64,000 nt of DNA from Polytrichum commune (taxonomy: Eukaryota; Streptophyta; Polytrichopsida; Polytrichales; Polytrichaceae), in NCBI GenBank assembly GCA_950295325.1, contig OX485806.1, positions 57,407,169 to 57,471,168 of the forward strand. The letters are read 5' to 3'. A program made the translations under genes and the position numbers. This document shows, piece after piece, positions 36,901 to 59,133 of this stretch. The notes beneath the pieces are model-generated. The model ran no database searches, had not been told where the DNA came from, and saw only the letters and a list, made by a program, of their open reading frames with translations. Positions within the stretch are counted from its first letter, which is position 1; each line of letters opens with the position of its first letter.

Positions 36901-37640
36901 AGAGGGTCTAGGTTGAAGAATGTGTGACCAGAATTTGAACATGAATGTGTAAGGTTTGTTTGGGCATATAGGTTGGAGTATTATGAATATAGGTAGGACT
37001 AGTGGACTGGAATGGACTTTCTCGGAACCGAGAGGGTCTTACATGTGGAATATAGGACCAGATTTTAATGTTGAATGTTGAAGGCTTGTTTGTGAATATA
37101 GGTTGGACATGTTGGTATATAGGTTGGACTAGTGTGTATGTGGACTGGACTAGACCCTCTCGGTTCCGAGAGGGTCTTAGTGGAGGAGTGTAGGACCAGA
37201 TTGCAATTTTGAATGTGGAAGGCTTGTTTGTGAAAATAGGTTGGAGAATTGTGTATGTGGATTGGACTGGACCCTCTCGGTTCCGAGAGGGTCTTAGAGG
37301 GGGAATGTTGGACCAGATTTTAGTCTTGAATGTGTAACGCTTGTTTGTGAATATAGTTTGGAGTAGTATGAATATCGATTGGACTCTCGGTTCCAAGAGG
37401 GTCTAAGTGGGGGAATATATGACCAGATTTTGAACATGACTGTGGAAGGCTTTAGGGGGCATATAGGTTGAATTGGTGTGTATATAGGTTTGACTCGTGG
37501 ACTGGAATGGACCTCTCGGTTCCGAGGGGGTCGTCATTGAAGAATGTGTGACCAGGTTTTGAACATGAATGTGGAAGGCTTGTTTGTGAACATAGGTTGG
37601 AGTCAGTGGTATATAGGTTGGATTAGAGTGTATGTGGACT
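33990..37640. repeat. family-2 palindromic array in intron 1, copy E
   Basis: About 29 units of roughly 105-140 bp, each with CCCTCTCGG-TT/AA-CCGAGAGGG arms, for example near 34022, 34569, 34807, 34935, 35077, 35197, 35463, 35595, 36003, 36120, 36258, 36501, 37153 and 37270. Units with TT and AA centres are mixed in a higher-order pattern of about 650 bp. The open frames on minus through this region (GLYTF-, SEPRGS- and PSRNREGP-like peptides) are repeat translations, not genes. Confidence 0.93.
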
Positions 37641-37697
37641 GGAGAAATTTAGATAAATTCAACTAGTGTGAACTCATTGTGTCATGAAATTGTACAG

Positions 37698-37751: not shown

Positions 37752-38439
37752 TGTCGCAACCCTTGCTAGCCCCCCTTGACAATCTTGCCAATTTTCAATT
37801 CTAGCAAAGGTTACAAGCGCTAACCATTTGCATTCCGCCATGCTAATAGTTAGCTCCTCCTACCCCGGACCTTAAAGTTCATAGGAGGGAACCAACCCTC
37901 CTACTTTGCTTTTGGGACTCACCCCTTAATCGGTAACCCATTCCTAGATGTGGACTTCCATCCATGGAAGTCCAATCCCTTGTTGATCATCGTGTTGCCA
38001 GAGCAACACTACAACAACCCGAACCATACTAGACAACTATGGCCTCACATTGGGCCAATCCCATGGAGGCCGTGCCGTTCGGCCTCGGGTGGGTGAGGCC
38101 ACACCACCTCACCCATATAAGCCTCTAGGACTCTACACGGGGCCCCTACCCCACCGTCAACCAACCTCTTGTCTCTCCACCAAAAGTTGGGGCCAAGTAG
38201 ACATTTTCCCTTAGCTGCTGGGCCTAGAAGCCCCAGCAGCTTCAGACCATCATAACTTCCTTGTATGATGTCTGATCATAACAAACGACCCCCCCCCCAT
38301 TGTCATCTACGCTTCACGTACATGCCGATGGACTCCTCACTTGCCCCAATAGGGCAAGTCTTGGGGAAGTTATGCCTGTTTGAACCTTGGCAGTCCCGGG
38401 AATCACTCCCAGGCACTGCTGTACCAGGGCGCTGTCCCG
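37752..38439 (-). mobile_element. solo LTR, first part, split by element B
   Basis: Starts TGTCGCAACCC (LTR reversed) after the duplication AACAT at 37747-37751. Runs to the internal GCGCTGTCCCG, where element B begins. The remainder is at 59646-59931 followed by AACAT at 59932-59936. Confidence 0.9.
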
Positions 38440-38614
38440 GGGGGAAAGTTAGTATGCGAGCGGAGAGCGAAGAGCAGAGAGCGAAGAGCGGAGAACTCAA
38501 TTTGAGACATGATATGAGAGAGAAAATGCACCTATAACCGCGGGATTGAGGGAAAATGGAAGAACTATTTTTAGAAAATGTGGAGAGGTATGGACTCTAT
38601 TACCGTGGAAATAA
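38440..38614. repeat. left end of element B (methyltransferase side)
   Basis: GGGGGAAAGTTAGTATGCGA, then GCGGAGAGCGAAGAGC iterations and a subterminal TACCGTGGAAATA at about 38600. Matches the end of element D at 17206. Confidence 0.8.
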
Positions 38615-40071
38615 AGTAACATTTCCCTATTCATAAAGTTAATAGAGTTTTGAAACATAGAAATATTAAAATAAAATTCAAAATTAGGGCTTACATCACT
38701 ATGACGTTACAATTATAATTACCGAAATGGTGTGCTATATTACATAATACGGTAAATTAAATAATATTTACTATTTGAACGTGACACGAAGGAGGTTGGC
38801 GAAAACAAATCTCCACATACGGTCCACCCTCTATTACTGTTACACCTATAAGTGTTAACCATTTCCAAATGCTTACTTTATTCTACTCCATACATATTGC
38901 ACACTATAAATGTTAAACCTGTTAATTGTTAACAAAATGGTGTTCACTTCTTTGTGAAGTTGACTCTATAAATGTTAACGACTGAAATACATTCATAAAT
39001 ACATGAGGGTTAACAGTATAAGATTTAGAAAGATCTGTTGTCAAGTATCGGACTTGTTTTTGGAGGGGCCTAGACAGATGATAAATCCCATTCGCAAATG
39101 CCCACAACTGGCACATATTCTCCTACCGACGAGTCTGCAAATAAAACTAAACACCTAGCCTACCCAAAAAAACACAAATACAACCTTATGACCAATAAAC
39201 TGAATTCTAAAAAATTCAAAACAGATATCTAAGTTACCACTTGGATTAGCAAACATTGGCAGTGTACTTTACCATTTATTCAACCCAGCATCTGCCTAAG
39301 ATCGCAAGCAATCATTGAAAAAATGTATGAAAACGATAATAGAAGCCATAACCATTATCATCAAGATTGCCTTCTTCATCTGCATCACTATCACCAAGGA
39401 TAGTAATTACGCCTGGCAGGTTCTCAACCTGTATGCCTTCCTCTACCCCCAAGGCTTCCTCCACAATGACAACATCATCAATGTCTTCCTCCTCCACGTC
39501 ATCAACATCAATGTAGACCATTGTGTAATATAGGTGTGCACCTCATATCATTTTTGATAATTGGAATATTGAAAACCACACCACACTTTATAAATCCAAA
39601 TACCAATCAATCAAACCCAAAATCACTCAACCATGAGGTCGTCACTACTAGATTCCCTACTTCCAAAGATACTACCCTCATGGCCGCCCTCATTTTGTTA
39701 ATTGTTAACAAAATGGTGTTCCCTTCTTTGTAAAGTTGAATCTATAAATGTTAACGACTGAAATACATTCATAATTCACACATGATTTGTAAACTTGATA
39801 TTGAATAAAGTTTTGATTGGGTTTGCAATTTTGTGTATGGTATTCTCTCAGAATTATTCTTCACAATTGCTTATAGTTAAGACATGTTAAGATTTGTATA
39901 TTGCTCAACATTTGAGGGTGAACATTATAGATGGTGATCAAAAATGAAGAATGCAATGCGGGAACAACGAAAAGATGCATTCAATGAGATAATTGGAATA
40001 TTGAAATCCACACCACACTTTATAAATCCATATACCGATAAATCAAACCAACAAATCAATCAAACCCAAAA
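38615..40071. repeat. 3' flank of ParB-MTase B with a tandem duplication
   Basis: Two imperfect copies of one block: TTAATTGTTAACAAAATGGT with GTTAACGACTGAAATACATT at about 38924-39010 and again at 39697-39775, and the 3' end of the gene (CACTCAAC-ATGAGGTCGTCA, CTAGATTCCCTACTTCCAAA) at 39620-39690 and 40070-40140. So the last exon tail is present twice. No RNA gene is seen. Confidence 0.7.
39312..39521 (-). CDS. small acidic ORF, unrecognised
   Basis: 69 codons, beginning MVYIDVDDVEEEDIDDVVIV and rich in Asp/Glu. It lies downstream of the ParB-MTase B stop on the same strand, inside the duplicated block. Acidic tails also end the ParB-MTase proteins of copies A and B, so this may be a detached or alternative last exon. 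It could equally be chance. Confidence 0.25.
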   Translation of the reverse strand: MVYIDVDDVEEEDIDDVVIVEEALGVEEGIQVENLPGVITILGDSDADEEGNLDDNGYGFYYRFHTFFQ

Positions 40072-43000
40072 TCACTCAACAATGAGGTCGTCAATACTAG
40101 ATTCCCTACTTCCAAAGATACTACCCTCATGGCCGCCCTCATCTGAAGTGGAATCTAAGCTATGGCACTCATTATCCACCTCCGCAGAAAGGTCGAAGAA
40201 GTCTAAGGCACGGGGGTCATAACCCGGAGACGGAGTACTAGCTTCGGTAGGAGAAGGTTGTGCCGCTAGTACCATCGCCATATCATGGGCATAGATAGGC
40301 AATGTGAAACCCATGGTGGGAGTACCCAACACATCCGCACCAACGCCAAGTCTAAAAAAAAACACGAAAATTGTAAGAAAGAGGATGGAAAGTGTAAAAG
40401 CCGAATGGACAAGGAAAATAAGCGAAGAAGGTCATCATATTCACTTACTGCGAGGGCTCTGGCCTCGATCGCTTCAAGGCCGGCTGCCTCTTCTGCGTGC
40501 CTTGTGTAGCCTGCGTGGGAGCAACAACAATGGATGGAGCCTTCACCGCAGGCTGAACACTCTTGAGTGGCTTAAGGACACGGTTGAAGGTGTCCTCGTC
40601 CTCCTCAAGAGCAACGACATGGCGCCCAAGCTGCCTGCATGCATGGATACAAGTCCCTGTTGCAGAGTAAGCCACATTTCAGTCAACCCCCTTACTCAGT
40701 TAGCCACAAAATCAACATTTCAGACCTCATTCAAGGCCTAACTAAGGCCACATTTCAGACAGCCCCCTTACTCAGTTAGCCACAAAATCAACACTTTGAG
40801 CCTAATTCAAGACCTAACTAAGCCACATTTAAGTCAGCCCCCTTACTCAGTTACCCACAAAATCAACCCATCAGACCTCATTCAAGGCCTAACTAAGGTT
40901 ACATTTCAGTTTGCCCCCTTACTCAGTTAGCCACAAAATGAACACTTTGAGCCTAATTCAAGACCTAACTAAACCACATTTAAGTCAACCCCCTTACTCA
41001 GTTAGCCACAAAATCAACACTTTGAGCCTCATTAAAGACCTAACTAAGCCACATCAAAGTCAGCCCCTTACACAGATAGCCACAAAATCAACACTGTGAG
41101 CCTAATTGAAGGCCTAACTAAGGCCACATTTTAGTCAGCCCCTAACACAGATAGCCACAAAATCAGCACTGTGAGCCTAATTCAAGAACCAACTAAGGCC
41201 ACATTTCAGTCAGCCCCTTACTCAGTTAGCCACAAAATCAACAATTTGAGCCTCATTAAAGACCTAACTAAGCCACATTCCAGTCGGCCCCTTACTCAGT
41301 TAGCCACAAAATCAACATTTTGAGCCTAATTGAAGGCCTAACTAAGGCCACATTTCAGTCAGCCCCTAACACAGATAGCCACAAAATCAACACTGTGAGC
41401 CTAATTCAAGAACCAACTAAGGCCACATTTCAGTCAGCCCCTTACTAAGTTAGCCACAAAATCAACATTTTGAGCCTCATTAAAGACCTAACTAAGCCAC
41501 ATTCCAGTCAACCCCTTACACAGTTAGCCACACAATCAACATTTTAAGCCTAATTGAAGGCCACATTAAGGCCACATTTCAGTCAATCCACTAGTTCATA
41601 TAGACAAATTTCTAAGTTGTTAGAGGTTCTGAAGTTGGTCTGGGATGCTTTATCGGATCCGACTATGCCCTTTAGGCCTAACTTGAGACCTCACAAACAT
41701 GCACTCCTAAACCATATGGCCAGAAATTAGAATCCCAAAGAACTAACTAAGGCCACATTTCAGTCAGCCCCTTACTCAGTTAGACAAAAAATCAAAACTT
41801 TGAGCCTCATTAAAGACCTAACGAAGGCCACATATCAGTCAACCCACTAGTTCATATAGACAAATTTCTAAGTTGTTAGAGGTTCTGAAGTTGGTCTCGG
41901 ATGCTTTATCGGATCCGACTATGCCCTTTAGGCCTAACCTGAGACCTCAAAAACATGCACTCCTAAACCATATGGCCAGAAATAAGAATCCCTAAGAACT
42001 AACTAAGGCCACATTTCAGTCTGCCCCTTACTCAGTTAGCCAGAAAAACAACACTTTGAGCCTAATTCAAGACCTAACTAAGCCACATTTAAGTCAGCCC
42101 CCTTACTCAGTTAGCCACAAAATCAACACTTTGAGCCTTATTGAAGAGCTAAGTAAGCCATATTTAAGTCAGCATCCTTACTCAGTTAGCCACAAAAACA
42201 ACACTTTGAGCCTAATGGAAGACCTAACTAAGCCACATTTAAGTCAGCCCCCTTACTTAGTTAGCCACAAAATCAACACTTTGAGCCTTATTGAAGAGCT
42301 AAGTAAGCCATATTTAAGTCAGCCCCCTTACTCAGTTAGCCACAAAATCAACATCTCAGACATCATTCAAGAACTAACTAACGCCACATTTCAGTCAACC
42401 CACTAGTTCATATAGCCAAATTTCTAAGTTTTTAGAGGTTCTCAACTTGGACTTGGATGCATTGTCGGATCCGACAATGCCATTTACGCCTAACCTGAGA
42501 CCTCACAAACATGCACCCCTCATGTCGCAACCCTTGCTAGCCCCCCTTGACCATCTTGCCAATTTTCATTTCCTAGCAAAGGTTACGAGCGCTAACCCTT
42601 CGCATACCGCCATGCTAATGGTTAGCTCCTCTCACCCCGGACCTTATAGTTCATAGGAGGGGAACCAACCCTCCTACTTTGCTTTCGGGACTCACCCCTT
42701 CAATCGGTAACCAACCCCGTTAATCGGTAACCAATCCTTAGATGTGGACTTCCATCCATGGAAGTCCAATCTTATGTTGATCATCGCGTTGCCGGAGCAA
42801 CACTACAACAACCCGAACCATACTAGGCAACTATGGCCTCACATTAGGCCAATGCCAATGGAGGCCGTGCCGTTCGGCCTCGGGTGGGTGAGGCCACACC
42901 ACCTCACCCATATAAGCCTCTAGGACTCTACGCGGGGCCCCTACCCCACCGTCAACCAACCTCTTGTCTCTCTACCAAGAGTTGGGGCCAAGTGGACATT

Positions 43001-46000
43001 TTCCCTTAGCTGCTAGGCCTAGAAACCCCCCAGCAGCTTCAGACCATCATAACTTCCTTGTATGATGTCTGATCATAACAACCAACCACTCCATCTTCAT
43101 CTACGCTTCACGTAGATGCCGATGGACTCCTCACTTGCCTCATTCAGGCAAGTCTTGAGGAAGTTATGCCTATTTGAACCTTGGCAGTCCCGGGAATCAC
43201 TCCCAGGCACTGCTGTACCAGGGCGCTGTCCCGGGACAGCGCCCCACTCAAATGGCCATAACTCCTAGCTCACACCTCCAATTGAGGTGTTCTTGAGCAT
43301 TCTAGAATCACCATGCCATGAGCAACGCATAGCTCATGGCCTTACCCTCATGCCTCCTAGTCTCCGTGGGTGGGAGGCGTTCCCAACGCCCGGGGCCCTC
43401 ACCCACACTAGGATCACTTGGGCCCTCTCACCAACGGCGCCACAAGTCCCGGGTGTCACTCCGGGGTCCCCCTTGTGCCCATGGTGTTTCGGGCACTCCT
43501 CATGGAGAGGTGCGCGACACCTCAACCATATGGCCAGAAATTTGAATCCCTAAGATCTACCTAATGCCTCATTTCAGACAGCCCCCTTACTCAGTTAGCC
43601 ACAAAATCAACACTTTGAGCCTCATTAAAGACCTTACTAAGCCACATCAGAGTCAGCCCCTTACTCAGTGAGCCACAAATTGAACATCTCAGACCTCTAA
43701 CATCTAAGGCCAGATTTAAGTCAACCAACTAGTTCATATAGCCAAATTTCTAAGTTTTTAGAGGTTCTCAACTAGGAATTAGGACATACCAATGCCCGCA
43801 TTAACGTCCACCACAACCTGTCCAATGTCCGTAGTGGCCATTATCAAGGAGGACATGAAAGCAACATCTTTCTCACGGGGACCACGCCAAGCTTTGGAGC
43901 CGTCCATGAGAGGAGTTGCGGTATAATTCATAATCGCATCATCCATGTCGAGCTCAATGCCAAGAGCCTTGAGCTCATTGGCATCGCGAAGTCGAAATGA
44001 CGAGTGCCGCGGCCGCTTATCAAGGTCGGATCCAATTGTTTTGGTGGCACGAACAAGTAGTACAACCTGGAAGAGGTTGGTGGTCTTGTCCTTATGCTTA
44101 GCTGAAGATAGGCGAAGACGGTTGACTCCCAGCCACTCCTTGAAGATCGTGAACCCAAAAGCAGCAAAGTGGTCTTCAATGCTCTCCCTAAAGTCACCAT
44201 TGTCATCAGGATGAAAGAGGAGGAGAGCTCCATCGTCATGCAGGATCTCATCCGCAAAATCAAAGAGCTCACCTAGAAAATCGCTATCCAATGCATTCCA
44301 CGAAGGTACACTATAGGAAGGATGGGAGACATTAGGTACAGGCAGGTTCTCCGGGATGTCGGCAATGACAAGATCAGCCATGCCCACATCTGACCTCGCA
44401 ACACCTAGAGCTCTCTTGGGATGGGAGGGTGGAAGAGAAAGAATGAAGTTTGAAATCTCATGAAAATGACGACGTTGATGAACAATGGAGGAATTCAACA
44501 TGAATTCTGAAACAACGGGAGGACGCCTAACAGATGAAAGAATGGGCGGAGGAGGCGGCCTGGATAGAGTAGGTAATTCACTTAGAGTTGCAGTGGATGC
44601 AACTGCCGCCTCAGGTGAAGCAGGGGGAGGGGGATCATCCTCCACAGGCTTGAGCTTCCTCGCGCGCTTCTTGAGTGATGACTCGTCTTGAGTCGCACGC
44701 TTCCTCCTCTTGGACTTCTGAGTGTTGGGCTCATCGAGAGTCGCAACAACCTCATCCACCTCCTAAAGCTCACTCTCTAGAAGAACAACCTCATCGCTTT
44801 GAGCAGGAGGCAGGTTCAGCTCTCCACCGGAGAGGCGAATCTTCAACTCCGCCTCCTCATCCGGTTGCCACGTCTTCTTACATTCCAAGTACCAGCAACA
44901 CTCGCGGAGATGCGGGAGGGAAAAGTTGCGTTTTTGAGCCGGGGAAAAAACGAATGTGGGTGAAGAGGAATCTGACCATGCGTCTAGAAATGGAGGGAGC
45001 TTCTTCAAAGCCTTCTTCTTGAAAAGCTCATGCTTGATGTACCTTCACAACCAAGGAGTGAGGCCAATCAACAACTTATAAAAGAACTAACGTATCGAAA
45101 GATTAAGTGATTGAGACTTCCTCACACCTCATTCAGACCTCGCAAACTAGGACCTCTAAATGATATGGCCAGAAATTTAAATACTTAGTACTTAAGTAAG
45201 CCACATTTCATTCTGCCCCGTTACTCAGTAAGCCACAAAATCAACAATTTGAGCCTACCTAAAGGCCACATGAAGGCCACATTTCAGTCAACACACTAGC
45301 TAATATAGCCAAATTTCCAAGTTTTTATAGGTTCTGAAGTTGGTCTCGGATGGTTTATCGGATCCGACAATGCCCTGTAGGCCCCCACCCTGAGACCTCA
45401 CAAACATGCACCCCTCAACCATATGGCCAGAAATTTGAATCCCTAAGAACTAACTAATGCCTCATTTCAGTCTGCCCCTTACTCAGTTAGCCACAAAATC
45501 AAAACTTTGAGCCTCATTGAAGACCTAACTAAGGCCACATTTCAGTCAGCCCCTTATTCAGATAGCCACAAAATCAACACTATGAGCCTAATTCAAGAAC
45601 TAACTAAAGCAAGATTACAGTCAACACCTTACTTAGTTAGCCACATAATCAACACTTGGAGCCTAATTGAAGGCCTAACTAAGGCCACATTTCAGACAAC
45701 CCCTAACATAGATAGCCACAAAATCAACATTGTGAGCCTAATTCAAGAACCAACTAAGGCCACATTTCAGTCAACCCACTAGCTAATATAGCCAAATTTC
45801 TAAGTTTCTAAAGGTTCTGAAGTTGGTCTCGGATGCTTTATCGGATCCGACAATGCCCTTTAGGCCTTACCTGAGACCTCACAAACATGCACCCCTCAAC
45901 CATGTGGCCAGAAATTTGAATACTTAGTACCTAACTTAGCCCACATATAAGTCAACTCACTTATGGAGTTAGCCACAAAATGAATTTTTCAGACCTCATT

Positions 46001-49000
46001 CAAGGCCACACTAAGCCAACTTTCTAAGTTTTTAGAGGTTCTCAACTTCGTCTTGGATGCTTTGTCGGATCCGACAATGCCCTTTAGGCCTAACCTGAGA
46101 CCTCACAAACATCCACCCCTCAACCATATGGCCAGAAATTTGGATTATAAAGACCTAACTAAGGCCACATTTCAGGGTGCCCCTTACTCAGTTAGCCACA
46201 AAATCAAAACTTTGAGCATCATTAAAGACCTAACCAAGGCCACATCAAAGTCAGCCCCTACCTCAGATAGCCAGAAATCAACACTGTGTGTCGCGCACCT
46301 CTCCATAAGGAGTGCCCGAAACACCATGGGCACAAGGGGGACCCCGGAGTGACACCCGGGACTTGTGGCGCCATTGGTGAGAGGGCCCAAGTGATCCTAG
46401 TGTGGGTGAGGGCCCCGGGCGTTGGGAACGCCTCCCACCCACTGAGACTAGGAAGCATGAGGGTAAGGCCATGAGCTATGCGTAGCTCATAGCGTGGTGA
46501 TTCTAGAATGCTCAAGAACACCTCAATCGGAGGTGTGAGCTAGGAGTTATGGCCATTTGAGTGGGGCGCTGTCCCGGGACAGCGCCCTGGTGCAGCAGTG
46601 CCTGGGAGTGACTCCCGGGACTGCCAAGGTTCAAAGAGGCATAACGTCCTCATAACTTGCCGAAATGGGGCAAGTGAGGAGTCCATCGGCATCTATGTGA
46701 AGCGTGGATGGAGATGGAGGGGTTGGTGGTTAGCATCAGACATCATACAAGGAAGTTATGATGGTCTGAAGTTGCTGGGGGGTTCTAGGCCCAGCAGCTA
46801 AAGGAAAATGTCCACTTGGCCCCAACTCTTGGTAGAGAGACAAGAGGTTGGTTGACGGTGGGGTAGGGGCCCCGCGTGAAGTCCTAGAGGCTTATATGGG
46901 TGAGGTGGTGTGGCCTCACCCACCCGAGGCCGAACGGCAAGGCCTCCATGGGCATTGGCCCATTGTGAGGCCATAGTTGCCTAGTATGCTTCGGGTTGTT
47001 GTAGTGTTGCTCCGGCAACGCGATGATCAACATAGGATTGGACTTCCATGGATGGAAGTCCACATTGGGGAAATGGGTTACCGATTAAGGGGTGAGTCCC
47101 GAAAGCAAAGTAGGAGGGTTGGTTCCCTCCTATGAACTATTGGTCCGGGGTAAGAGGAGCTATCCATTAGCATGGCGGAATGCGAATGGTTAGCGCTCGT
47201 AACCTTTGCTAGAATTGAAAATTGGCAAGATTGTCAAGGGGGGCTAGCAAGGGTTGCGACACTGTGAGCCTAATTCAAGAACTAACTAAGGCCACATTTC
47301 AATCAGCCCTTTACACAGTTAGCCACAAAATCAACAATTTGACTGTTACTGAAGGCCACATTAAGGCCACATTTCAGTCAACCCACTAGTTCATATTGAC
47401 AAATTTCGAAGTTATTAGAGGTTGTGAAGTTGGTCGCGGATGCTTTGTCGGATCCGACAATGCCCTTTAGGCCCAACCTGAGACCTCACAAACATGCACC
47501 CCTCAACAATATGGCCAGAAATTTGGATTCCCAAGAACTAACTACTGCCACATTTCAGGCTGCCCCTTACTCAGTTAGCCACAAAATTAAAACTTTGAGC
47601 CTCATGAAAGACATAACCAAGGTCACATTAAACTCAGTTCCTTACTCAGTTAGCCACAAAATCAATATTTTGAGCCTAATTGAATGCCACATTAAGGCCA
47701 CATTTCAGTCAACCAACTAGTTCATAAAGCCAACTTTCTAAGTTTTTTAGAGGTTCTCAACTTGGTCTTGGATGCATTGTCGGATCCGACAATGCCCTTT
47801 AGGCCTAACCTGAGACCTCACAAACATGCACCCCTCAACCATATGGCCAGAAATTTAAATACTTAGTACATAACTAAGGCCACATTTTAGTTAGCCCCCT
47901 TAATCAGGTAACCACAAAATCAACATTTCAGAACTCATTAATGGCCACACTAAGGCTACATTTAAGTCAACCCACTAATTCATATAAACAAATTTCTAAG
48001 TTTTTAGAGGTTCTCAACTTTGTCTCTTATGCTTTGTCGGATCCGACAATGCCCTTTAGGCCCAACCTGAGACCTCACAAACATGCACCCCTCAACAATA
48101 TGGCCAGAAATTTGAATCCATAAGATCTAACCAAGGCCACATTAAAGTCAGCCCCTTGCTCAGTTAGCCAAAAATTCAACAATTTCAGACTTCATTAATG
48201 GCCATACTAAAGCTACATTAGAGGTTCTCAACTTGGTCTTAGATGCATTGTCGGATCCGACAATGACCTTTAGGCCTTACCTGAGACCTCACAAACATGC
48301 ACCCCTCAACTATATGGCCAGAAATTTGGATTATAAAGACCACACTAAGGCCACATTAAAGTCAGCCCCCTTCATCAGTTAGCCACAAATTAAACATTTC
48401 AGACCTCATTAATGGCCACACTAAGGCTACATTTAAGTCAACCCCCTAGTTCATATAGCCAAATTTCTAAGTTTTTAGAGGTTCTCAACTTGGTCTTGGA
48501 TGCTTTGTCGGATCCGACAATGCCCTTTAGGCCTTACCTGAGACCTCACAAACATGCACCCCTCAATCATATGGCTAGAAATTTGAATCCCTAAGAACTA
48601 ACTAATGCCTCATTTCAGTCAGCCCCCTTCCTCAGTTAGCCACAAAATCAACACTTTGAGCCTCATTAAAGACCTAACTAAGCCACATCAAAGTCAGCCC
48701 CTTACTCAGTTAGCCACAAAATCAATATTCTGAGACTCATTCAAGACCACATTAAGGCCATAATTAAGTGAACCCACTAGTTCATATAGCCATTTTCTAA
48801 GTTTTTAGAGGTTCTCAACTTTGTCTCTTATGCTTTGTCGGATCCGACAATGCCCTTTAGGCCCAACCTGAGACCTCACAAACATGCACCCCTCAACAAT
48901 ATGGCAAGAATTTTGGATTCCCAAGAACTAACTACTGCCACATTTCAGGCTGCCCCTTACTCAGTTAGCCACAAAATCAATATTGCAGACCTCATTAATG

Positions 49001-52000
49001 GCCACACTAAGGCTACATTTAAGTCAACCCACTAATTCATATAGCCAAATTTCCAAGTTTTTATAGGTTCTGAAGTTGGTCTCGGATGGTTTATTGGATC
49101 CGACAATGCCCTTTAGGCCCAACCTGAGACCTCACAAACATGCACCCCTCAACCATATGGACAAAAATTTGTATACTTAGTACCTAAATAAGCTACATCT
49201 TAGTCGCCAACTAGCTCACGACGAGCTCTAAAAGGAATAGATTAAATGGTTTTAAATAAATGAGGAGAACAAATGATGTCTCAACTAACGTACCGAAAAA
49301 TTAAGCGCTTGACAATGTTGTCAGAGCCTTTGACATCCTTCCACCACGTCCCCTTTCCGTAGATATCTGAACCTGAAAAGTGACCTATGAACACCTTATC
49401 CCAAAGGTAGATCCACCACTTCTCCAAGTAATATGGCAATGAATCAACTTCGACATCTCCGTCAAGCCCACCCAATGCGTCAAGTATATCAGGTAACTCC
49501 TTGACCACTGCATCCTCAAGCTGTGGATAAATTCAAGGCCAAGATAAGAATCGGCATAGAATGAAGAGTTGATTGGTAAGTAAGGATAAGGAGGATAGAC
49601 GTACCCCTGCCCAGAACGCTGCTTTATTGAGCCAAGGTTTCAAGGTGTCCTCGCTTGCAGGACTTTTGGGGAACCGGATAGCTTCACGATTGAAATTTCC
49701 ACTGTTCCACCACTTTAGCCAACGGACTTTATACTATGGCTCCACAGCAGCTGTGGCAATGAGTTGCAATTTCTCCAATGTCATCTCAATCTTCTTAGAA
49801 TGGTGGCCGCTATAATGCCTAGTAACCTGAAACAAATGTCATCAAAAAAGAAGGCGGAGTAAATTTAATCATGAATTTACGAGAAAGTGCTGAAATGAAT
49901 GCGAGCAATACCGAAGGTATAATTCCGAAGGTTGGTGAGAACCTCTTCCAGGAAGTCTTTTCCAAGGGCCGGGTTTGCGATTGATTGTTGCTTGTTGAAC
50001 TTGTGTCCAAGTTCCTTTGTCGTCTTCTTTATCACAGCGTCCAATACTTCACCCAACCCGTTCCCCGACTGTTCCTCTGGAGGCACTTCCTCCTTGTATA
50101 TTTGGGTAGCCTCATCTACCGCATCGGCTATCTCTTGCTGAACATATATTCTAAATTGTTAGATCACGACTAAAAGTAATGAATGCGAAGTAGAGGGTTG
50201 AGAAATTTGGAGTGACTTACATTGAAAATGAAGGACACCATAAGATCCTGGGTCAGCGGGTACCAAGGGCTCTTGGGGCCTCTGCTCTTGCACGCTTGGA
50301 ATTGCTCCTCGGTCAATAAGGGCTGATAGTAGCTAAGATCATACGAACCGTATTTTTTAATGCGGTGTAGAGTGTGTACGAGGCTAGTTTTAATGTGCGC
50401 GGTTTGGTTAGCCCTGTTGCGGTAGAGACAAATGTCATTAAATGCAAATAAAAAATGAAGGAAACAACGATATGAAAAATTATCATACTTACTTATTGAT
50501 GTCGTGCATTGCGTTAAGGACGTCCCCACGCCCACCCGTTGTGTCCAAGATGACACATTCTGGGCAACCATGCTTCTCGTACGAGAGTGCATCGTCTTTG
50601 TGATCTGTTTCAATACACTCCTTCCAGGCTAACAAGCGATGGTTACCATCATACACAAAGAACATACATCCACTGAGGCTCATCAAGTCTTTATCCTTGC
50701 GCAAAAGAGACTCAAACTTATTATTTTCTGCATTCCATAGGTCTCCCCATTCACGCCTGTCTTTCGCTGAAATGAATCGATTATCTCCGGACTCATTTGT
50801 AGTAGACACATAAAAAGTGGCTGACCCAGCTCGGTATCCAAATTGAAATGCCGACATGAGCTTTGTAATGTTGCTGCGGAAGGTTGGGCGAACCAATGGC
50901 ATGTGAATCAACCTGCACAGGGGGATTCTCATGGAGGACTTTTCCACATGTAGGATTCTCATGCCCTCAACAACTGAAAAGCTATCTTTCTTTAAATTGT
51001 GGCGAATTCGATATTCCATTGCACGAACACCCACATCCGAATCTGCAAGTGAGCCGCAGAGTGGCATCCCGGGTGTCGGCGCCTCGCTACTACCTGGTGT
51101 AAGCCCAGTATTTTGATCACATGACAAGGGAGACCCTTGCTCCCTATGCTCCTCAACACTAAGGGATGACCCAGCGCCAATACGACCCCCAACATCCACA
51201 GACTCACGATCGGCATCCATCTCAACGATCTGCGGACAACCAATTTATTGAAAGAATGAAGAGCATTCAAATGAACCCAACTTACATTACAATCAACCCC
51301 CCAAAATCCTAAAAAATCAAACCTCATTCATGCCACAGTACTGTCAACCCCCTAGTTCAGATAGCCAGAATTCTACGCTTTTAAGGGTTCTTAAAGCTGT
51401 TTCGGAGGCAATGTCGGATCCGACATAGCCCTTAAAGCCTAACCTAACACCAAACAAATATGGACAACTATACCATATGGCCAGAAATTTGAATAGTTAG
51501 TACCTAACTATGCCCACATTTCAGTCAGCCCACTTATAGAGTTAGCCACGAACTCAACATTTTGAGCCTCACTTAGGACACACTAATGCCTCATCTCAGA
51601 CGCCCCCTAGTTCATATAGCCAAATTTCTAAGTTTTTAGAGGTTCTCAAATTGGTCTTGGATGCTTTGTCGGATCCGACAATACCATTTAGGCCTAAGCT
51701 GAGACTTAACAAACATGCACCCTCAACAGTATGGCCAGAAATTTGAAAACTTAGTACATAACTAAAACCACATTCAAGTCAGCCCCCTTACTCAGTTAGC
51801 CACAAAATCAATATTCTGATCCTTATTCCAGACAACATTCAGGCCACATTTAAGTGAACCCACTAGTTCATTTAGCCATTTTCTAACTTTATAGAGGTTC
51901 TCAACTTGGTCTCTTATGCCTTGTCGGATCCGACAATGCCCATTAGGCGTAACCTGAGACCTCACAAACATGCACCCATCAACTATATGGCCAGAAATTT

Positions 52001-53847
52001 GGATTATAAAGACCTAACTAAGGCCACATTAAAGTCAGCCCCCTTACTCAATTAGCCACAAAATCAACATTTCATACCTAAGTAATTGACACACTAAGGC
52101 TACATTTCAGTCAACCCCCTAGTTCATATAGCCAAATTTCCAAGTTTTTAGAGGTTCTCAACTTGGTCTTGGATGCTTTGTCGGATCCGACAATGCCCTA
52201 TAGGCCTTACCTGAGACCTCACAAACATGCACCCCTCAACCATATGGCCAGAAATTTGGATTATAAAGACCTAACTAAGGCCACATTAAAGTCAATTCAC
52301 TTATGGAATTAGCCACAAAATGAATTTTTCAGACCTCATTCAAGGCCACACTAAGCCAACTTTATAAGTTTTTAGAGGTTCTCAACTTGGTCTTGGATGC
52401 TTTGTCGGATCCGACAATGCCCTATAGGCCTTACCTGAGACCTCACAAACATGCACCCCTCAACCATATGGCCAGAAATTTGGATTATAAAGACCTAACT
52501 AAGGCCACATTAAAGTCAATTCACTTATGGAGTTAGCCACAAATTCGACAATTTCAGCCTCATTCAAAACCTAACTAAGGCCACATCAAAGTCAACCCCT
52601 ACTCAGTTACCCACATTCCAAGTATTGTGAGGTTCTCAGGCTGGTCTTGGATGCTTTGTCGGATCCGACAATGCCCTCTAGGCCTAACCTGTGGCCTCCC
52701 AAACATGCACCCCTCAACCACATGGCCAGAAATTTGAATCCCTAAGTACTAACTAAGGCCATTTCAGTCTGCCCCCTTACTCAGTTAGCATGAAAATGAA
52801 CACTTTGAGCCTCATTAAAGACCTAACTAAGCCACATCTAAGTCAGCCCCTTACTCAGTTATCCACAAAATCAACATCTCACACCTCATTCAATAACTAA
52901 CTAAGGCCACATTTAAGTCAACCCACTATTTCATGTAGCCAAATTTCTAAGTATTTAGAGGTTCTCAACTTGGTCTTCGATGCTTTGTCGGATCCGACAA
53001 TGCCCTTTAGGCCTTACCTGAGACCTCACAAACAAGCACCCCTCACTTCATATGATGACTACATAATTCATATAACCACAAAATAAACCTTTTTGACCTC
53101 ACCTGAGACCTCTCCACGAGGCGACCACTGCCCTCCCCTCGAATCCCTCCCCCTCTCCAAATTGAGGCTGCAACCTTGAACTCTGTGTTCACTCCTCGTA
53201 TTTGGAGGAATACCCTATTTTTGAGGTTTGTTGTAATGCGGGGAACGATGGTATGTTACTGTTGCGTCAGTCTTGTTCCCTTCCTCTTCCGAGTCATTGT
53301 GACCACCCTTTGCATTGTGAGTGCTTCCACATGCCCACACTTGCTGCCTTGTTTACCTCACGATTACTACCCCTAATTTCTAGTGCATATATATTAACAA
53401 TGTCTAGTGCCAAACTTGCAATGATACGACAAAGCATCGAAAATATCATTACTCGAATGCATAGGATAGTTTCCTCTCATGCCATAATGTTTCCTTTCAA
53501 GCCAACTATACACGGGACTCATAAAATTTAAATAAATTCAAACTAAATGTAATGTAAGCAGAGCATACCTTAATTTCTTCATTGTCCAAGGAGGTGTCTT
53601 CCTCTCCTAATGAGAATAACCTAATGGGAGCAACCTCCGCCTTTTCAAATGACTCAACATTTCGTTTTGAACGACTGTGATTAGCTTTTGTTGAATTATC
53701 CCCTTTTCTTCCCATGGTTGACCTCAATTTGTACAGGGTCACTACCTTATCTATAGTAGCGAACCTCTCCTTTCTCTCAATGCGCCTCTGTTTCTCATTA
53801 GTCTTCCTCTCTTCTCGATCTGCTCTCGCTCTTGACCGAGTGTTCAT
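40072..53847 (-). CDS. ParB-like / DNA methyltransferase-like gene, copy B
   Basis: Best preserved copy, about 1,200 residues, minus strand. Exons: 53847-53569, 51229-50493, 50413-50221, 50137-about 49912, 49826-49605, 49520-49294, 45042-43790, 40656-40449, 40351-40072. Exon 1 is basic (NTRSRARADREERK). The second exon holds the ParB-like domain: MRIPLCRLIHMPLVRP, FGYRAGSATFYVST, and FFVYDGNHRLLAWKE. Exons three to six are helical. The long 43790-45042 exon has a Lys/Arg then Pro-rich linker, then a beta-class methyltransferase: MADLVIADIPENL (motif IV place, DIPE instead of DPPY), DFADEILHDDGALLLFHPDD, TTNLFQVVLLVRATK, WRGPREKDVAFMSSL and VVVDVNAGIG, completed across an intron by GTCIHACRQLGRHVVALEED (motif I). 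Ends TGA. Two TAG codons (49734-49736, 44763-44765) lie in otherwise continuous frame. The border near 49912 is uncertain. Confidence 0.8.
40660..42522. repeat. family-3 minisatellite, third block, part 1
   Basis: About 75-bp units (GCCACATTTCAGTCAGCCCC, TTACTCAGTTAGCCACAAAA, TCAACACTTTGAGCCT) with longer segments bearing TCGGATCCGA palindromes at about 41654, 41909 and 42465. It lies in the intron that splits motif I of ParB-MTase B. Confidence 0.92.
42523..43519 (-). mobile_element. solo LTR with 5-bp duplication CCTCA
   Basis: 997 bp, reversed (TGTCGCAACCC to GTGCGCGACA), flanked by CCTCA at 42518-42522 and 43520-43524. It has the 24-bp perfect palindrome centred on TCCCGGGA and was used here as the uninterrupted reference for the copy split by element B. 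Confidence 0.92.
43520..43785. repeat. family-3 minisatellite, third block, part 2
   Basis: Continuation of the array after the LTR, ending beside the donor GTATGT (43789 on minus) of the exon that ends in VVVDVNAGIG. Confidence 0.85.
45110..46288. repeat. family-3 minisatellite, second block, part 1
   Basis: Same monomer and palindrome segments (TCGGATCCGACAATGCCCT near 45358, 45840, 46066). Lies in the intron between the 49294-49520 exon and the 43790-45042 exon of ParB-MTase B. Confidence 0.92.
46289..47261 (+). mobile_element. solo LTR with 5-bp duplication CTGTG
   Basis: 973 bp, TGTCGCGCACC to GGTTGCGACA, flanked by CTGTG at 46284-46288 and 47262-47266. Inserted in the family-3 array of ParB-MTase B. 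Confidence 0.92.
47262..49260. repeat. family-3 minisatellite, second block, part 2
   Basis: Array continues with palindromes TTGTCGGATCCGACAA near 47447, 47777, 48037, 48250, 48508 and 48838 and a mutated one near 49093. Spacer text ACCTGAGACCTCACAAACAT, GCACCCCTCAACCATATGG is strongly conserved between units. Confidence 0.92.
51300..53115. repeat. family-3 minisatellite, first block (intron 1, copy B)
   Basis: Seven palindromes (51414, 51667, 51922, 52179, 52404, 52660, 52987), each GTCGGATCCGAC or longer, in the same repeat text as the other two blocks. Fills most of intron 1 between exon 1 (53569-53847) and the ParB-domain exon (50493-51229). Confidence 0.92.
53116..53568. other. 5' part of intron 1, copy B
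   Basis: Unique intronic sequence between donor GTATGC (53568 on minus) and the array. No gene is recognised; frames here are short and unsupported. Confidence 0.4.
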
Positions 53848-54420
53848 CTCTAACCATGCTCAAGCATCTATGCGCCATCATTATGTTCCTATTGTTTTGG
53901 ATTTAGATAATTAACCTGCAGTTTCCTTATTTATTCCTTGGTTTATGCACACTCCATTCAAACACTAAAAAAGGCGCCACTATTGTCTATTCTACCTAAT
54001 CGGTGTCAGCTATATTGTTGTGATTAAGGGATGACTACTATTGTAGTACATCCTATTCATACATGACACTGGTTTTCTAGAATTTACATAAATAACTATT
54101 GATTATTAATTGATCTAGCGGGTTATCATATATTCGGACATTGCAGTCCACCCTAGGTGTATATAATACCCGATTACTTGTACTTGGCTGATATAATTTG
54201 GAGTATCGTGACCTACTTGCCGCTCTCTTTCAGACTCCTTGGTTTAGGGTGTTACACATTTAGAAGTATCATTCATGTTTTCCTTCATAGATCATCCGTC
54301 GTTTGGATCTTGTCCATCATCGTTGTCTTTGGCAATGCATTTCTAATATAAAGGTATCCCACTATGTCGAGAAACCTCTTTCATATTTCCGTCATCGTGC
54401 AAGTCCTCATTCCCCTCATC
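53848..54420. promoter_or_regulatory. divergent promoter region of element B
   Basis: AT-rich space between the ParB-MTase start (minus) and the transposase start (plus), the only place for both promoters. GTGTATATAATA at 54158-54169 is a TATA-like box facing the transposase, about 250 bp before its ATG. No minisatellite here, unlike element E. Confidence 0.4.
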
Positions 54421-57400
54421 ATGGCTCATGTGCCTGCTAACGGAGAAGTGCCCATGGCAATCCTCTATGCTGATGGACAGAGAGTCCCACTTACCTTTCG
54501 GATGGAGGACAGCGGTCTAGCTTACGTGACGTCCCAGCGTTTGAGTAGTCGGTTCGGTTTCAGAGAGGACACTATTAATGTTGAGGAGGATATATTTTTG
54601 ATGTTCTCACGTCAGAACTTACACACACCCTTGGTCGCATTTCGCATCGAGATGAGAACAATAACATGTTTTGGACTCTTCATCCAGGTAGTTACCGAGT
54701 CTATGGCCTCACTGAATCTCAGATGGCTGCTTCTACTGAGATCCTCACTCCTCGCTCTTCCTCTACCTGCACCATTCAAACTCCTATGCCACGTGATGAG
54801 AAGGTCAAGCTCGAGCCCGGTCTCGAGACGCCTATTGTAGAGAACTCTAGAGTAGAATCTGTAATTACGCTTTCTTCCGATGACGAGGTCAGTCCCACCA
54901 AGCCCCCGCCTCAGGTTATAGTTGGTGGGGACCCTCCTAAAGTATATCCTTTGTCGCAAGATACTGTTAGCATAGTACCATTTCTTAAAAAACTTGCAGG
55001 AATGCCTGGGAGAAAAAACATTCTTAAAAAATTAGACTACTCGGTGATTAGACACGAGAGGGTAGACTACCTTCCTGCTGTGTTTGATGGTGCGGTTATA
55101 TTTGAGTTGCCACCCACTGGTCACACGGCCGCACGGTCACAGGCCAAATCAATGCAGGGAATGGACAAGCGATACGACGGCCATGTATGGACGAAGACCA
55201 TCACCACCAACATCACAAACGAATTTGGTTTGTCCTTCCGTTCTTCCGCATGCGTTGGACACCTGCGTTGCAACAACAAGGAGTGCGAATATTTGATCCG
55301 CCGACCTCGCATTTTCCAAGTCAACGAAACAGAGTTTGAAGGTTGTACCTTCCAAGCCTTTGTAGTGGATCGAGCACCCCCCCTGACTCTACGCTTGTTT
55401 GCAAGGTATGTAAAGAGCCCCCAACATGTATTGCTACATGTGGGGCGAAAATTTATTATGTTGCTGGCAAAAACAATCACACAAGAGCGTGCATCCACAT
55501 TGGAACTCACGATCACCCTGTCAAGGTGGGCGACTACAGAGACACTAAGGCTGAGATCAGTGGCCTAATTGAAGAACAGATCGAGAAGACTCCCCAGGCT
55601 ACCAAGAGTGCAGTGGTGCTGGAGGCTAGCAAAGTTCTAATTGGCAATTATCTTCTTCAACCTGATGATGTGCCACCAAAGAAGCTTAGTCTAGAGGAAC
55701 TTGTTCCTGTACTTGACCGATGCAAGGACATGGCTTCCCCGAACATCCGCAACAAGGTCATGAGTTTCCGTTTCCTCAGAAGGTATGGTGTCATGGACTC
55801 TATCACCAAACTTCGCGGAATCAGTTTATGGGCCATTGTTCAGGAGAACAAATTCCTTGGTCAAGGGGCTGATCTTGATAAGGTTTTTGTCTTCAAGATG
55901 TCGGAAGTTGGGCCTGGTAGTGGGGTAGACTTGGTCAAGCGTATGCAGCCCGACGAAGATCTGGAGAATGCTTGGATGATGTTCGACCATGTGAAACGGG
56001 TTAGACAATGGACCACAATGGCATGCCACGTGTATGACTCCATGTATTGTCGTGTCATGACCATTGCAAGCTGTGACATGCAATCGGAGGACTGTGATGC
56101 CCAGATCGTTTTCTGGAAGAATCTCAATGCTGTGATGGAGAGGAATGGTGTTGTCCATACCAACTTCAAGGGTTTCATGGCCGACAGCGCCCAGGCCAAT
56201 TGGAATGAAGTTCGGGTCATATATGGCAACGGGAAGAAGGAGGACCGCATGGATGACCGGGAGAGAACCTGTCAATTTCACTGGACCCAGTCTATGGTTA
56301 AGTATACCGAGAAGTACATTCCCGAAGAATTCAAGGAGCAGCACAAGAAGATGTGCCACCAGTATAGGACGGCGAGGACCATGGACGAAGCAGAGAGTAT
56401 GTACCACGGGCTACATGCATGGTGGGTATCTGCCGGGGCAGTGACAGAGAAGGCCCTAAACAAACTAGAGCTCTGGCTTGCATTCTGGCACTACCGTTAT
56501 CGCCAATGGGGAGGCTTCATGACCGGGGTATGTTTTCCCAATACATTTCATTTTATTTTCATTCTTTTCAATGTGCTCTTATCTCAAACAACTCTTCTGT
56601 AATCTCTAATTGCTTCCAAAAATTTTATCGCAGAAATTTACAGAAGAAGAACTAGCAGAAATGCCTTCATGTAATCTCGCTGAATCAATACACAACAAGT
56701 GGCTTCAAGCCTCTGGGAACAACGGCGGCGACCTCTACGTTGCTACAGTTGACGACTTCGTTCGAGGCTTCCTACAAGTTGTCAATTACACCAGTTCCTC
56801 AAAGGTGACGTGGGCAAAACATGCCCTACAAAGAAAGAGCTGAAACTAAGGATGGCAGAGCGTAGGGCGAAGCAAACAGGTAATCCTTTAGTGCTTGAAG
56901 ACCCCATGATGGACATGCCTGGAGCAGATGAATTTTGTACCCGTATTCCTGGCATGGCTGGAGAAGAGGTATTCGGGTCCTCGAAGCGGAAGGCATATCT
57001 GCCTCTTGGAGCTGAAGAGGAGTCTCATCGGTCTGACAAGGTTAACTTCTCACATCCAAGAGGTTCAGGACGTGCTGTGAGGGCTCATCCTGTGCAGATG
57101 CCCATCATTCTTCAAGATACTGAAGATGATACGATCGTCCAAGATATTCATCATGAGCCTGAGCCTGAGAACATCCCTGCGTCCTCGCCGAACGAGGGGG
57201 GATCCGTCATGTCAGTGTTGTTGAAGAGACAAAGGTTGACGTCAAGGAGTGGCACATATCAAGACTCCCCAAGACCTCGGCGAAGTGCTGCTGGGCCCAG
57301 AGAGCTGTCACGAAGAAGAAGTGTACTGAGAGAATTGTGAGAGGCGCCAATTTCACCGCCGCGCCTACCTACACCGGAGTTTGGACTAATATACGCAGGA

Positions 57401-58119
57401 ACTAATCTGAGAGGACAAAATTCTTCTTCTGCTCCAATGACATTGACCGGTGCGTGAAGGGTACAAGGCGCAAATGGGTTGCTCAGCACTCAGCATACCA
57501 TGAAATGCCGCCGATTCCAGACGTTTGGCCGGTGAAGCTAGGCAAAAACCTCAAGCCTACTGAAATTCTTGCCCTTGAAGCGGCTGGATTCCAGCTCCCG
57601 TTGAAAAAGCCGGTCTCTCCAAGACGTTTGTTCTCTTCTGCTCCGCCGCCTGCAAATCTGAGCGCGGTACCCGTTCCTGCAGAACCAGACCGCTATCCTG
57701 GCAAGAGAGACGACAAGATTGTGAAACGCACTGCCACTCGCCCAAATCCCCCGCAACGACTCTCCATGGCCTCCTCCGACTCTTTGAAAGCTTGCATCCG
57801 TTCCATCAATATGATACCTCATCCAGGACATGGTTGCATTATCGGGTTGGATTCGGGTGTTTCTCCTACCATCACACAGTATCAGGTCACCATCAGTTCT
57901 TTCGTAGGTTGCACTTGCCCTGCATTCAAGAAGACGATGACCAAGTTCCGAGGGAAGACCCAATTCTCTTATTGCAAGCATGTGTATTTCATATTTTTGA
58001 AGGTTTGCAACCGTCATCCCGAGGCCGACCTTTTCATTCACGCGCCTACCTTTAGCTTCAACGAGGTCAAGCTAGTCCTAGAAAGCGGACTCTTGACTCA
58101 CCCTTTGGCTAAAAACTAG
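54421..58119 (+). pseudogene. MULE-like transposase with SWIM finger, copy B
   Basis: Two exons, 54421-about 56527 and 56634-58119. The N-terminus has a beta-rich module (YADGQRVPLTFRMEDSGLAY, FWTLHPGSYRVYGL) not seen in copies A and E. Then ESVITLSSDDE, a SUMO-interacting-type motif; GMPGRKNILKKLDYS; zinc region 1 (SSACVGHLRCNNKECEYL); zinc region 2 (CKVCKEPPTC to ACIHIGTHDHPV); DDE core with VYDSMYCRVMTIASCD, FMADSAQANWNEV, CQFHWTQS; then MPSCNLAESIHNKW with the last acidic residue; CCWAQRAVTKKKC; and a SWIM finger CTCPAF...YCKH near 57910-57980. Broken by single-base shifts near 54655, 55370, 56790 and 57235 and a TAA near 57402. It has TGG where copies A and E have the shared TAG. Ends TAG at 58117. 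Confidence 0.88.
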
Positions 58120-58436
58120 GAGGCAACCTACAAACATCCTAGATTCTTTTCAATGGACGGTGTCCATTCAAAATTCCCTTGTCATTACATGTACTTAGTC
58201 AGCAAGACAATATTCATAATATATTTTTCAATAAAAAGTGTTTTGTCATTCATACTATATAGACTATGCACGGCTACCTAAACCCTTACTAGCAGCTTAG
58301 GCAGAAAATATATATTTACAAGATTGCCTAAATTTTCTGGAAATACATTCAAGCATCAACAATTTAAGATACATGACGTTTCTCTTCGGCCTCTAGCGCA
58401 TTCAAGTGACTCTTCATCTGTAGCTCTACTCCGCAT
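58120..58436. other. 3' spacer between convergent genes, element B
   Basis: AT-rich 3' flank of the transposase with an AATAAAA signal near 58231. No gene is recognised. Confidence 0.4.
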
Positions 58437-58568
58437 AGAATACACAAAATGTAGTGAACTATGAAAGGAATATGGTTGAAAGAGATATGGCCAAATTCGA
58501 GTCATCGAATTTGGACACACCTCTTTCAACCATGTTCCTTTCATAGTTCACTACATTTTGTGTACTCT
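58437..58568. repeat. long near-perfect inverted repeat (64-nt arms)
   Basis: Left arm 58437-58500, four-base loop GTCA, right arm 58505-58568. By eye about 59 of 64 positions pair. The arm text includes ACACAAAATGTAGTGAACTA and GGTTGAAAGAG. It lies between the convergent 3' ends of the transposase and X, so readthrough from either gene would form a long hairpin RNA. It may also be a small foldback element. Confidence 0.85.
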
Positions 58569-58677
58569 TATCTCTTCCGAATCCCTCATTTCCAAGAACC
58601 GTCACCGCCAAAACCAATTGCAATAATTGATTAATATAATAAAGGTATGATTACAATGCTTCCTATGTCTATCAACT

Positions 58678-59133
58678 CTATTTCCGTTTCACATACTTCT
58701 TGGATGAATCCGAGGAAGGTGGACCCGGTCTAAGCAAATTCATATAAGAAAATGTTTTATCTCTCTTTCGATCCTTCAACGGTAGATGATGCGGCGGCAA
58801 GGCTCTCATCCGTTCGCAAAATGAAAGAGACTTCGAAGATTCCCCTACAACCTTCACCTCCTCCTCCTCCGTTTTGTTCGATTTGTCTTCATCCAAATCA
58901 GCGTCCTTCTCCGGCACATCTTCCTACCTCTTTTCTTTTTGCTCCTCCCGCGTCCTCCACCTCCATGCTTGTGTAGACTGCGAAAATGGAGTCAGGTCGT
59001 AGTCATCACTACTTCGATTTCCAGCAGCAAACGAAAATTCCGGCGATAAATTAACCGAAATATGAGGATCTGCTAGACTCCTAATTTCCTTATCCCATCC
59101 TAATCCAACAAACATATCTCTCTCATCACCCAT
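58678..59133 (-). pseudogene. Element-encoded protein X (copy B, one stop)
   Basis: Homologue of 26483-26980: MGDERDMFVGLGWDKEIRSL, FSQSTQAWRWRTREEQKEK, then DADLDEDK, VVGESSKSLSFCERMRAL and a KYVKRK end. A TAG at 58924-58926 interrupts an otherwise continuous frame, just before PEKDADL. The middle is shorter than in copy E. Same convergent position with the transposase and next to the end of the element. The N-terminal ATG at 59133 is chosen by alignment with copy E rather than the longer frame to 59175. Confidence 0.7.

Follow-up and report, generated by a model that had tools for sequence, protein, structure and literature searches.

A ParB-like and methylase-like gene carried by a Mutator-like transposon of the moss Polytrichum commune, with palindrome arrays that may serve self-recognition

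To our knowledge, few transposons encode proteins with which they locate and shield their own copies. Among the Mutator-like elements of Arabidopsis, VANDAL21 encodes VANC, a sequence-specific anti-silencing protein; according to excerpts of the source (PMC5735166), VANC21 motifs form tandem arrays, located in introns as well as upstream of the transposase, and VANC proteins contain DUF1985 and DUF287. The moss element described here is similar, as far as those excerpts go (PMC5735166), in having an accessory gene within a Mutator-like transposon and short motifs in tandem arrays that vary by subfamily, but it encodes ParB-like and methylase-like folds instead of DUF1985/DUF287, its sites are long palindromes, and its anti-silencing role is proposed by analogy. 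No Pfam match to DUF1985 or DUF287 was found in exons 1-4 and 6-9 of its gene (the parts of exon 7 before and after its stop were scanned apart). ParB-parS partition systems likewise pair the ParB N-domain fold with long palindromes, arrayed on the mobile DNA that also encodes the protein; unlike in those systems, an HTH domain was not identified in the moss protein. Transposon-borne proteins related to DNA base modification occur elsewhere, and eukaryotic retrotransposons reportedly carry DNMTs. Fungal DNA transposons carry TET/JBP (PMC12730594, in excerpt); both cases involve other enzyme superfamilies than the moss protein, and a ParB part is not mentioned in the accounts consulted. A ParB fold together with a methylase is found in a 'DNA methylase' of Mycobacterium phage Vincenzo, a structural match to our ParB-like model (E 7e-3), and in a B. 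cereus ParB-methylase (PMC5512222, in excerpt). The moss protein differs from such phage and bacterial fusions, none of which appeared among the sequence matches listed, in its length (about 1,200 aa), its spliced plant nuclear gene and its non-canonical motif IV.

The gene (copy B) lies on the minus strand of the window, i.e. the whole 64,000-nt stretch of P. commune DNA analysed, and runs from an ATG at 53847 to a TGA ending at 40072, exactly the extent given in an earlier note on this DNA. With splice sites (GT/AG) and phase checked, the gene model has nine exons and eight introns, not the nine to ten introns that the note had counted. Exon 1 (53569..53847; all exons are on the minus strand) encodes a Lys/Arg-rich N-terminus, and exon 2 (50493..51229) contains the ParB-like domain, modelled over 180 aa (50495..51034). 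Exons 3 (50221..50413), 4 (49943..50137), 5 (49605..49826) and 6 (49294..49520) are followed by exon 7 (43790..45042), with a linker and the methylase domain as far as motif I, exon 8 (40449..40656), which completes motif I and adds the GRHVVALEED strand, and exon 9 (40072..40351), with an acidic C-terminal tail and the stop codon TGA. Two in-frame TAG codons interrupt copy B, at residue 499 in exon 5 and at residue 711 in the linker of exon 7.

Other copies in the window were recognized by homology. Copy A (1976..10510, plus strand), diverged and frame-broken, stands head-to-head with a transposase piece (3-861, minus strand), and the dyad CCTCTCG..CGAGAGG occurs at five sites in its introns. 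Two fragments correspond to the motif-I region of the methylase (copy C, 20340..20710, minus strand) and to the ParB-like exon (copy E, 60107..60675, plus strand, frame-broken). The frame damage in copies A, B and E consists of the two TAG codons in B and frame breaks in A and E; exons 2-9 are free of stops in four out of five young copies. The gene is more than a chance observation, given its homologous copies in the window, 131 genome matches to the part of exon 7 after its stop (some copies count twice), a dN/dS of 0.215 on the gene sequence, indicating purifying selection, and matches to the ParB-like and the methylase part, each, in a public protein collection. Ceratodon purpureus has one annotated relative.

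Shared ends, target duplications and genome-wide pairing with a transposase show copy B to be an accessory gene within a multi-copy DNA transposon of the Mutator-like type; the note's view of it as a gene resident in a eukaryote, with its introns as a sign of long residence, is unsupported. The whole transposon (element III, 38441..59636, 21,196 bp), whose ends match those of copies c6, c39 and c42, holds the gene, a transposase and a third open reading frame, ORF3. It is flanked by the target-site duplication GCTGTCCCGG (38431..38440 and 59637..59646), the left one within a copy of an LTR-like repeat that was the insertion site (uninterrupted copies of the repeat are found at 42523-43520 and 46285-47265). 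The left terminal repeat, GGGGAAAGTTAGTATGCGAGCGG (38441..38463, plus strand), is identical in c39, c42 and c6, and the right one reads inward as GGACGAGACTTGTATGCGAGCGT (59614..59636, minus strand); the inverted repeats are imperfect (in c39, 15 of 24 bases agree by eye). Mutator-like elements make target duplications of 8-11 bp, and here 10-bp duplications were found in all four copies with both ends found, together with the terminal inverted repeats expected of such elements. The earlier note had missed the transposon around the gene.

The coding blocks of the putative Mutator-like transposase (54352..58119, plus strand, a partial gene model) are head-to-head with copy B and include a SWIM-like zinc finger (E 0.0015, just below its cut-off) and DSAQANW and CxFHW motifs. 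This DSAQANW / CxFHW block, which we take to be a signature of MULE-type transposases, is present in 11 out of 12 loci scanned, and none of the Pfam transposase families matched. ORF3 (58678..59232, minus strand), convergent with the transposase, encodes a charged protein and has a second copy in the window (26456-26980, plus strand, 59% identity). A related element II has arrays with the dyad CCCTCTCGGNNCCGAGAGGG (32162..37643) around an exon-1 copy (33552-33872, plus strand), and a head-to-head transposase (27198-30566, minus strand).

The non-coding DNA of the element contains tandem palindrome arrays, TTGTCGGATCCGACAA and relatives, which lie in the gene introns in copy B and, in young copies, between exon 2 and the transposase; element II additionally has them between its two genes. 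By site count, TCGGATCCGA palindromes occur at three sites in intron 7 (41653..42474), nine in intron 6 (45358..48847; seven of them as the 14-mer TGTCGGATCCGACA) and seven in intron 1 (51414..52997). The 14-mer core has 658 sites genome-wide, as compared to 0 for a reversed control pattern, and among 50 of these sites listed (distinct, all on one contig, and compared with the 25 methylase-exon match starts there), 45 have a methylase-exon match no more than 30 kb away. A transposon-borne gene accompanied by such arrays suggests that the element finds and controls its copies through a protein that it encodes itself. Alternatively, the arrays may be ordinary satellite expansions in non-coding parts, unrelated to the protein, since tandem arrays grow by themselves; TCGGATCCGA is indeed absent from three of the six fetched copies (c8, c54 and c20). 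We consider this possible but doubtful, because arrays that differ in unit and spacing have dyad cores in common, TCGGATCCGA leads the 10-bp palindromes in 244 kb by a factor of three (87 sites, the next having 28), and subfamily differences at positions ±6 and ±8 occur on both sides so that the dyad is kept (as sites were picked by TCGGNNCCGA, the symmetry at ±2 to ±5 follows from that choice). The conservation of the palindrome core within the repeat unit ranks 6, 6, 1 and 2 of 101 windows, excluding sites with flanks half or less like the consensus (3/23 in copy B, 2/34 in c6, 0/24 in c39 and 10/36 in element II).

The protein might instead serve transposition, as a ParB-type partner that nicks DNA or recognizes ends for the transposase, working at the element ends or at the arrays and taking no part in silencing. 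Consistent with this, a methylase exon lies 7.9-25.6 kb upstream, on the opposite strand, in 30 of the 40 transposase copies scored (expected by chance at about 0.006 per copy), and a bacterial ParB-methylase is reported, in an excerpt of PMC5512222, to nick DNA. The pairing count compared the 40 scored transposase places (from 1008 candidates) with 122 of the 131 methylase-exon matches, the nine weakest being second pieces of matches already counted. We find this explanation unlikely, as the arrays sit in introns (in element II also between genes), away from the element ends, and for 10 of the 40 transposase copies the methylase exon was not found at the expected place.

The product of copy B joins a predicted ParB/sulfiredoxin fold to a beta-class-type methylase domain, under purifying selection. 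For exon 2, the fold proposed in the earlier note holds in structure prediction, the check it had named, and in structural alignment: the predicted model has the alpha+beta fold of the ParB N-domain. The GxxR/GxHR active-site box, which we take to be a mark of the ParB/sulfiredoxin superfamily, is also present, with GNH in 118 and GNHR in 112 of the 120 homologues listed. The motifs IPLCRL..RP, YRAG/YRDG and (E/D)GNHRL that the note had read in three copies are found in B and A, and in E only across its frame break, with IPLCHL. A profile scan of 46 members gave CB_ParB_C as the best ParB-named family (two members, E 0.089), and a PDB sequence search with the ParB-like part gave no match of note. 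The alignments used for folding contained 45 of these 120 homologues and, for the methylase part, 30 of the 62 related ORFs listed.

The C-terminal part is assigned to the beta-class methylases by sequence, as previously proposed, and weakly by a low-confidence structure model. The joined exon 7+8 piece of copy B matches PF01555 (N6_N4_Mtase), the profile named in the note, with 33.6 bits (gathering cut-off 26.7; E 4.8e-8); exon 7 alone gave no match at E <= 0.1, and one of the 31 members of the exon 7 alignment matched. Matching PDB sequences include DpnA (M1.HpyAVI; E 1.3e-4) and CcrM (3.5e-4), with MboIIA residues 30-151 matching query 61-178 at only 0.034. The moss protein shares region order with these enzymes, i.e. 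the permuted order claimed earlier (motif IV region first, then the variable region, and motif I C-terminal): PF01555 aligns in a single stretch (query 76-261), and the C-terminal parts of DpnA and CcrM match query 197-267 and 200-260, respectively. For motif I, DVNAGIG and GRHVVALEED are present across a phase-1 intron as described, but the spliced reading is DVNAGIGT rather than DVNAGIGGT. The motif IV region is likewise present, but copy B reads ADIPEN there, and the moss protein has D[IL]P[ED] where these enzymes have [DNS]PP[YFW].

A protein that marks the DNA of the element as an active N6-adenine or N4-cytosine methyltransferase, perhaps at GATC in the centre of TCGGATCCGA, would agree with the PF01555, CcrM and DpnA matches, with the motif-I-like stretch conserved among the related ORFs listed and with purifying selection on the methylase domain alone (dN/dS 0.25). 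Activity cannot be assumed, because the canonical motif IV occurs in none of the 62 related ORFs listed; of the 43 in which the region is visible (one of 44 pattern matches was spurious and was dropped), 30 have D[IL]P[ED], also seen in copy B, the young subfamily and c54, and 13 have other variants. In addition, Ala replaces the first Gly of motif I in the Ceratodon relative, and the dyad centre in element II is TT or AA in 21 of 27 sites, so GATC is absent there. We therefore regard an active enzyme as distinctly unlikely. Since motif IV is retained, though in a non-canonical form, the domain most likely works as a module of altered chemistry that binds SAM or DNA. An ordinary host gene, or one passively captured by a single element, would fit the spliced structure and the Ceratodon relative but is extremely improbable in view of the 131 genome matches, the transposase partnership and the target duplications, and for copy B the element boundaries refute it.

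The explanation we favour, to which we give an even chance, is that the accessory gene encodes a protein that recognizes the element's own palindrome arrays, with a logic like that of VANC in VANDAL21 and unrelated protein folds. The protein would recognize the palindromes as a dimer and, once bound, may coat or mark the element's own copies, which could then escape host silencing or be regulated as a group. A bolder version, which we consider quite improbable, is a eukaryotic ParB-parS-like self-recognition system, in which an NTP-gated ParB-fold clamp would load at regularly spaced palindromes in the non-coding DNA and spread, the methylase-derived domain would block or rewrite base modification, and each subfamily would guard its copies by means of a palindrome of its own.

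If self-recognition is true, the VANC strategy has evolved with other folds, whose kind is otherwise tied to conflict proteins of bacteria and phages, and the moss element would provide a second, independent model of the co-evolution of transposons and host silencing, as well as new modules for the sequence-specific binding of palindromic DNA. The conserved yet non-canonical motif IV also poses a testable question, namely what role a methylase fold plays without its usual catalytic motif.

Copy B, the ParB-like and methylase-like gene of the window, is borne on the minus strand at 40072-53847 as the earlier note proposed, with its start ATG at 53847 and a TGA stop whose last base is 40072. Its product of 1,197 residues is encoded by nine exons with consistent phases, separated by eight introns (all GT...AG), not by the nine to ten counted earlier. 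The motifs quoted in that note are present and, besides the intron number, need minor corrections: motif I reads DVNAGIGT after splicing instead of DVNAGIGGT, and the sequence at the motif IV position is ADIPEN, which is not canonical. Since two in-frame TAG codons interrupt the frame (residues 499 and 711), copy B is decaying. Just downstream, inside the same transposon, part of the last exon is present once more (39626-39760; 54% identity over 46 aa).

We searched the assembly to which the window belongs, 408 Mb in 64 contigs; nearly all of it lies in seven contigs (six of 42 to 78 Mb and a seventh of at least 67.7 Mb), and CCCTAAA telomere repeats are found at two of the three contig starts examined, the third being N. 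The source plant is probably a moss, perhaps one of the Polytrichaceae, a family with seven chromosomes. The transposase search gave 1008 candidates, and 40 copies were scored. As in the window, the methylase exon lies upstream of the transposase on the opposite strand in 30 of these 40 (chance about 0.006 per copy), and it was not found at that place in the other 10. Among six copies examined as 30-kb stretches, c8 has just an exon-1 piece upstream of the transposase, and c20 has no part of the gene within 20 kb of it. In both young copies examined, c39 and c42, a weak ParB-like fragment (30% identity; 18995-19159 of the 30-kb stretches) immediately precedes the transposase and has its orientation. 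The methylase exon has 131 genome matches, many with open frames of more than 400 codons. Among these matches, more than 30 short ones of near-equal score at query residues 125-227 (47-51% identity) point to a further, highly abundant subfamily in which the methylase exon is split differently.

The boundaries of two young, almost identical copies are sharp, and copy comparison gave the element ends as GGGGAAAGTTAGTATGCGAGCGG and GGACGAGACTTGTATG(C/T)GAGCG(G/T). Both termini were identified in four copies, namely c6, c39, c42 and the element of the window, and all four have 10-bp target duplications. This last one, element III (38441-59636), encloses copy B together with the neighboring transposase and ORF3; copy B is a transposon gene. 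The transposase is probably Mutator-like, based on the target duplication, a near-threshold SWIM finger and the DSAQANW / CxFHW motifs (11 of 12 loci scanned), which we take to be a Mutator-like transposase signature; no Pfam transposase profile matched. ORF3, which runs convergently to the transposase, encodes a charged protein (58678-59232, and 26456-26980 in a second element; 59% identity between the two); it gave no significant Pfam family in the one copy scanned and was not detected by tblastn in c39 and c42. A self-complementary stretch (58437-58568; 132 bp, 89%) separates transposase and ORF3.

Element III is inserted in an LTR-like repeat of roughly 1 kb (TGTCGCAACCC...GTGCGCGACA), of which there are many copies (42523-43520, 46285-47265, 30652-31643 and 25536-26481), nearby uninterrupted ones among them, and pieces (37752-38441, 59636-59935, 60745-61040 and 63522-64000); two copies lie in introns of copy B in opposite orientation. 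The window also holds two copies of a polyprotein that is Ty3/gypsy-type by eye (11919-13924 and 22786-24769, with one stretch weakly resembling an aspartic protease, E 0.005, below cut-off) and, outside element III, an inverted pair of 690 bp with 88% identity (16514-17205 and 61959-62650).

Exons 2-9 of five young copies (1,100 codons) are stop-free in four and differ mutually by 1-5 residues; exon 1 was not identified in young copies. Between copy B and c39, dN/dS is 0.215 overall (ParB-like exon core 0.125, exons 3-6 0.142, linker 0.186, methylase-like part 0.25, C-terminal tail 0.63), values that should be inflated by the decay of copy B.

Joined exons 7 and 8 of copy B match PF01555 (N6_N4_Mtase) above its cut-off (E 4.8e-8; 33.6 bits against 26.7), the profile suggested earlier; exon 7 alone gave no match to it at E <= 0.1. 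PF01555 is also found in the family member from the moss Ceratodon purpureus, the only organism-named relative among the 182 listed. The permuted beta-class order claimed from the sequence holds, as PDB matches of the joined piece run in the expected order (DpnA/M1.HpyAVI 1.3e-4, CcrM 3.5e-4, MboIIA weak at 0.034); with a two-sequence profile the values were 2e-4 for CcrM and 1.7e-3 for DpnA. The structure model of exon 7 is poor (pLDDT 51.7), and Foldseek with this low-confidence model placed CcrM and M1.HpyAVI on top of 26 matches at E <= 0.001, including METTL3 chains. In copy B, the young subfamily and the diverged copy c54, motif IV reads D[IL]P[ED], as it does in 30 of the 43 related ORFs showing the region (13 deviate); canonical [DNST]PP[YWF] occurs nowhere in the 62 related ORFs listed. 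Hence the altered motif is old and has mostly been retained, and catalysis cannot be taken for granted. This bears on one rival explanation, in which the protein would methylate the element's own DNA.

In copy B, introns 1, 6 and 7 contain tandem arrays of palindromes; young copies have them in the interval that separates exon 2 from the transposase. The spacing of sites is often 224 or 257 bp in copy B and c6, against about 170 bp for c39 and c42 and 127-139 bp or more for element II, and arrays with differing units have a dyad in common: TTGTCGGATCCGACAA in copy B and c6 (symmetry one base wider at 14 of 45 sites), CTGTCGGATCCGACAG in young copies, CCCTCTCGGNNCCGAGAGGG in element II (mostly imperfect, 21 of 27 sites being asymmetric at the centre), GTTTGGGTCGATCGACCCAAAC upstream of the c8 transposase, and, in the frame-broken copy A, the weaker dyad CCTCTCG-N4-CGAGAGG (five sites). 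TCGGATCCGA occurs 87 times in 244 kb (the runner-up 10-bp palindrome, an AT repeat, 28 times) and is absent from c8, c54 and c20. Genome-wide, TGTCGGATCCGACA has 658 occurrences versus 0 for the reversed pattern (about 1.5 expected by length alone); of 50 sites listed, every one has a methylase-exon match no more than 50 kb away, and for 45 the distance is at most 30 kb. Such linkage proves nothing alone, because the arrays travel with the element. Within the repeat units, core conservation ranks 6, 6, 1 and 2 of 101 windows (one rank per unit), and subfamily differences at +-6 and +-8 are two-sided, preserving symmetry.

Bacterial ParB-methylase fusions exist, one of them reported as DNA-nicking (PMC5512222), and a second rival explanation is that the protein would act in transposition. 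We consider self-recognition, in which the element's own protein would recognise the element, the likeliest mechanism. PMC5735166 describes VANDAL21, a Mutator-like element of Arabidopsis with an accessory protein, VANC21, whose 9-base binding motif forms tandem-repeat arrays both within introns and upstream of the transposase; these arrays vary by subfamily. Compared with that description, the array anatomy of element III is similar, whereas the proteins differ; by analogy, and with no membership claimed, VANDAL21 may thus illustrate a possible mode of action for element III.
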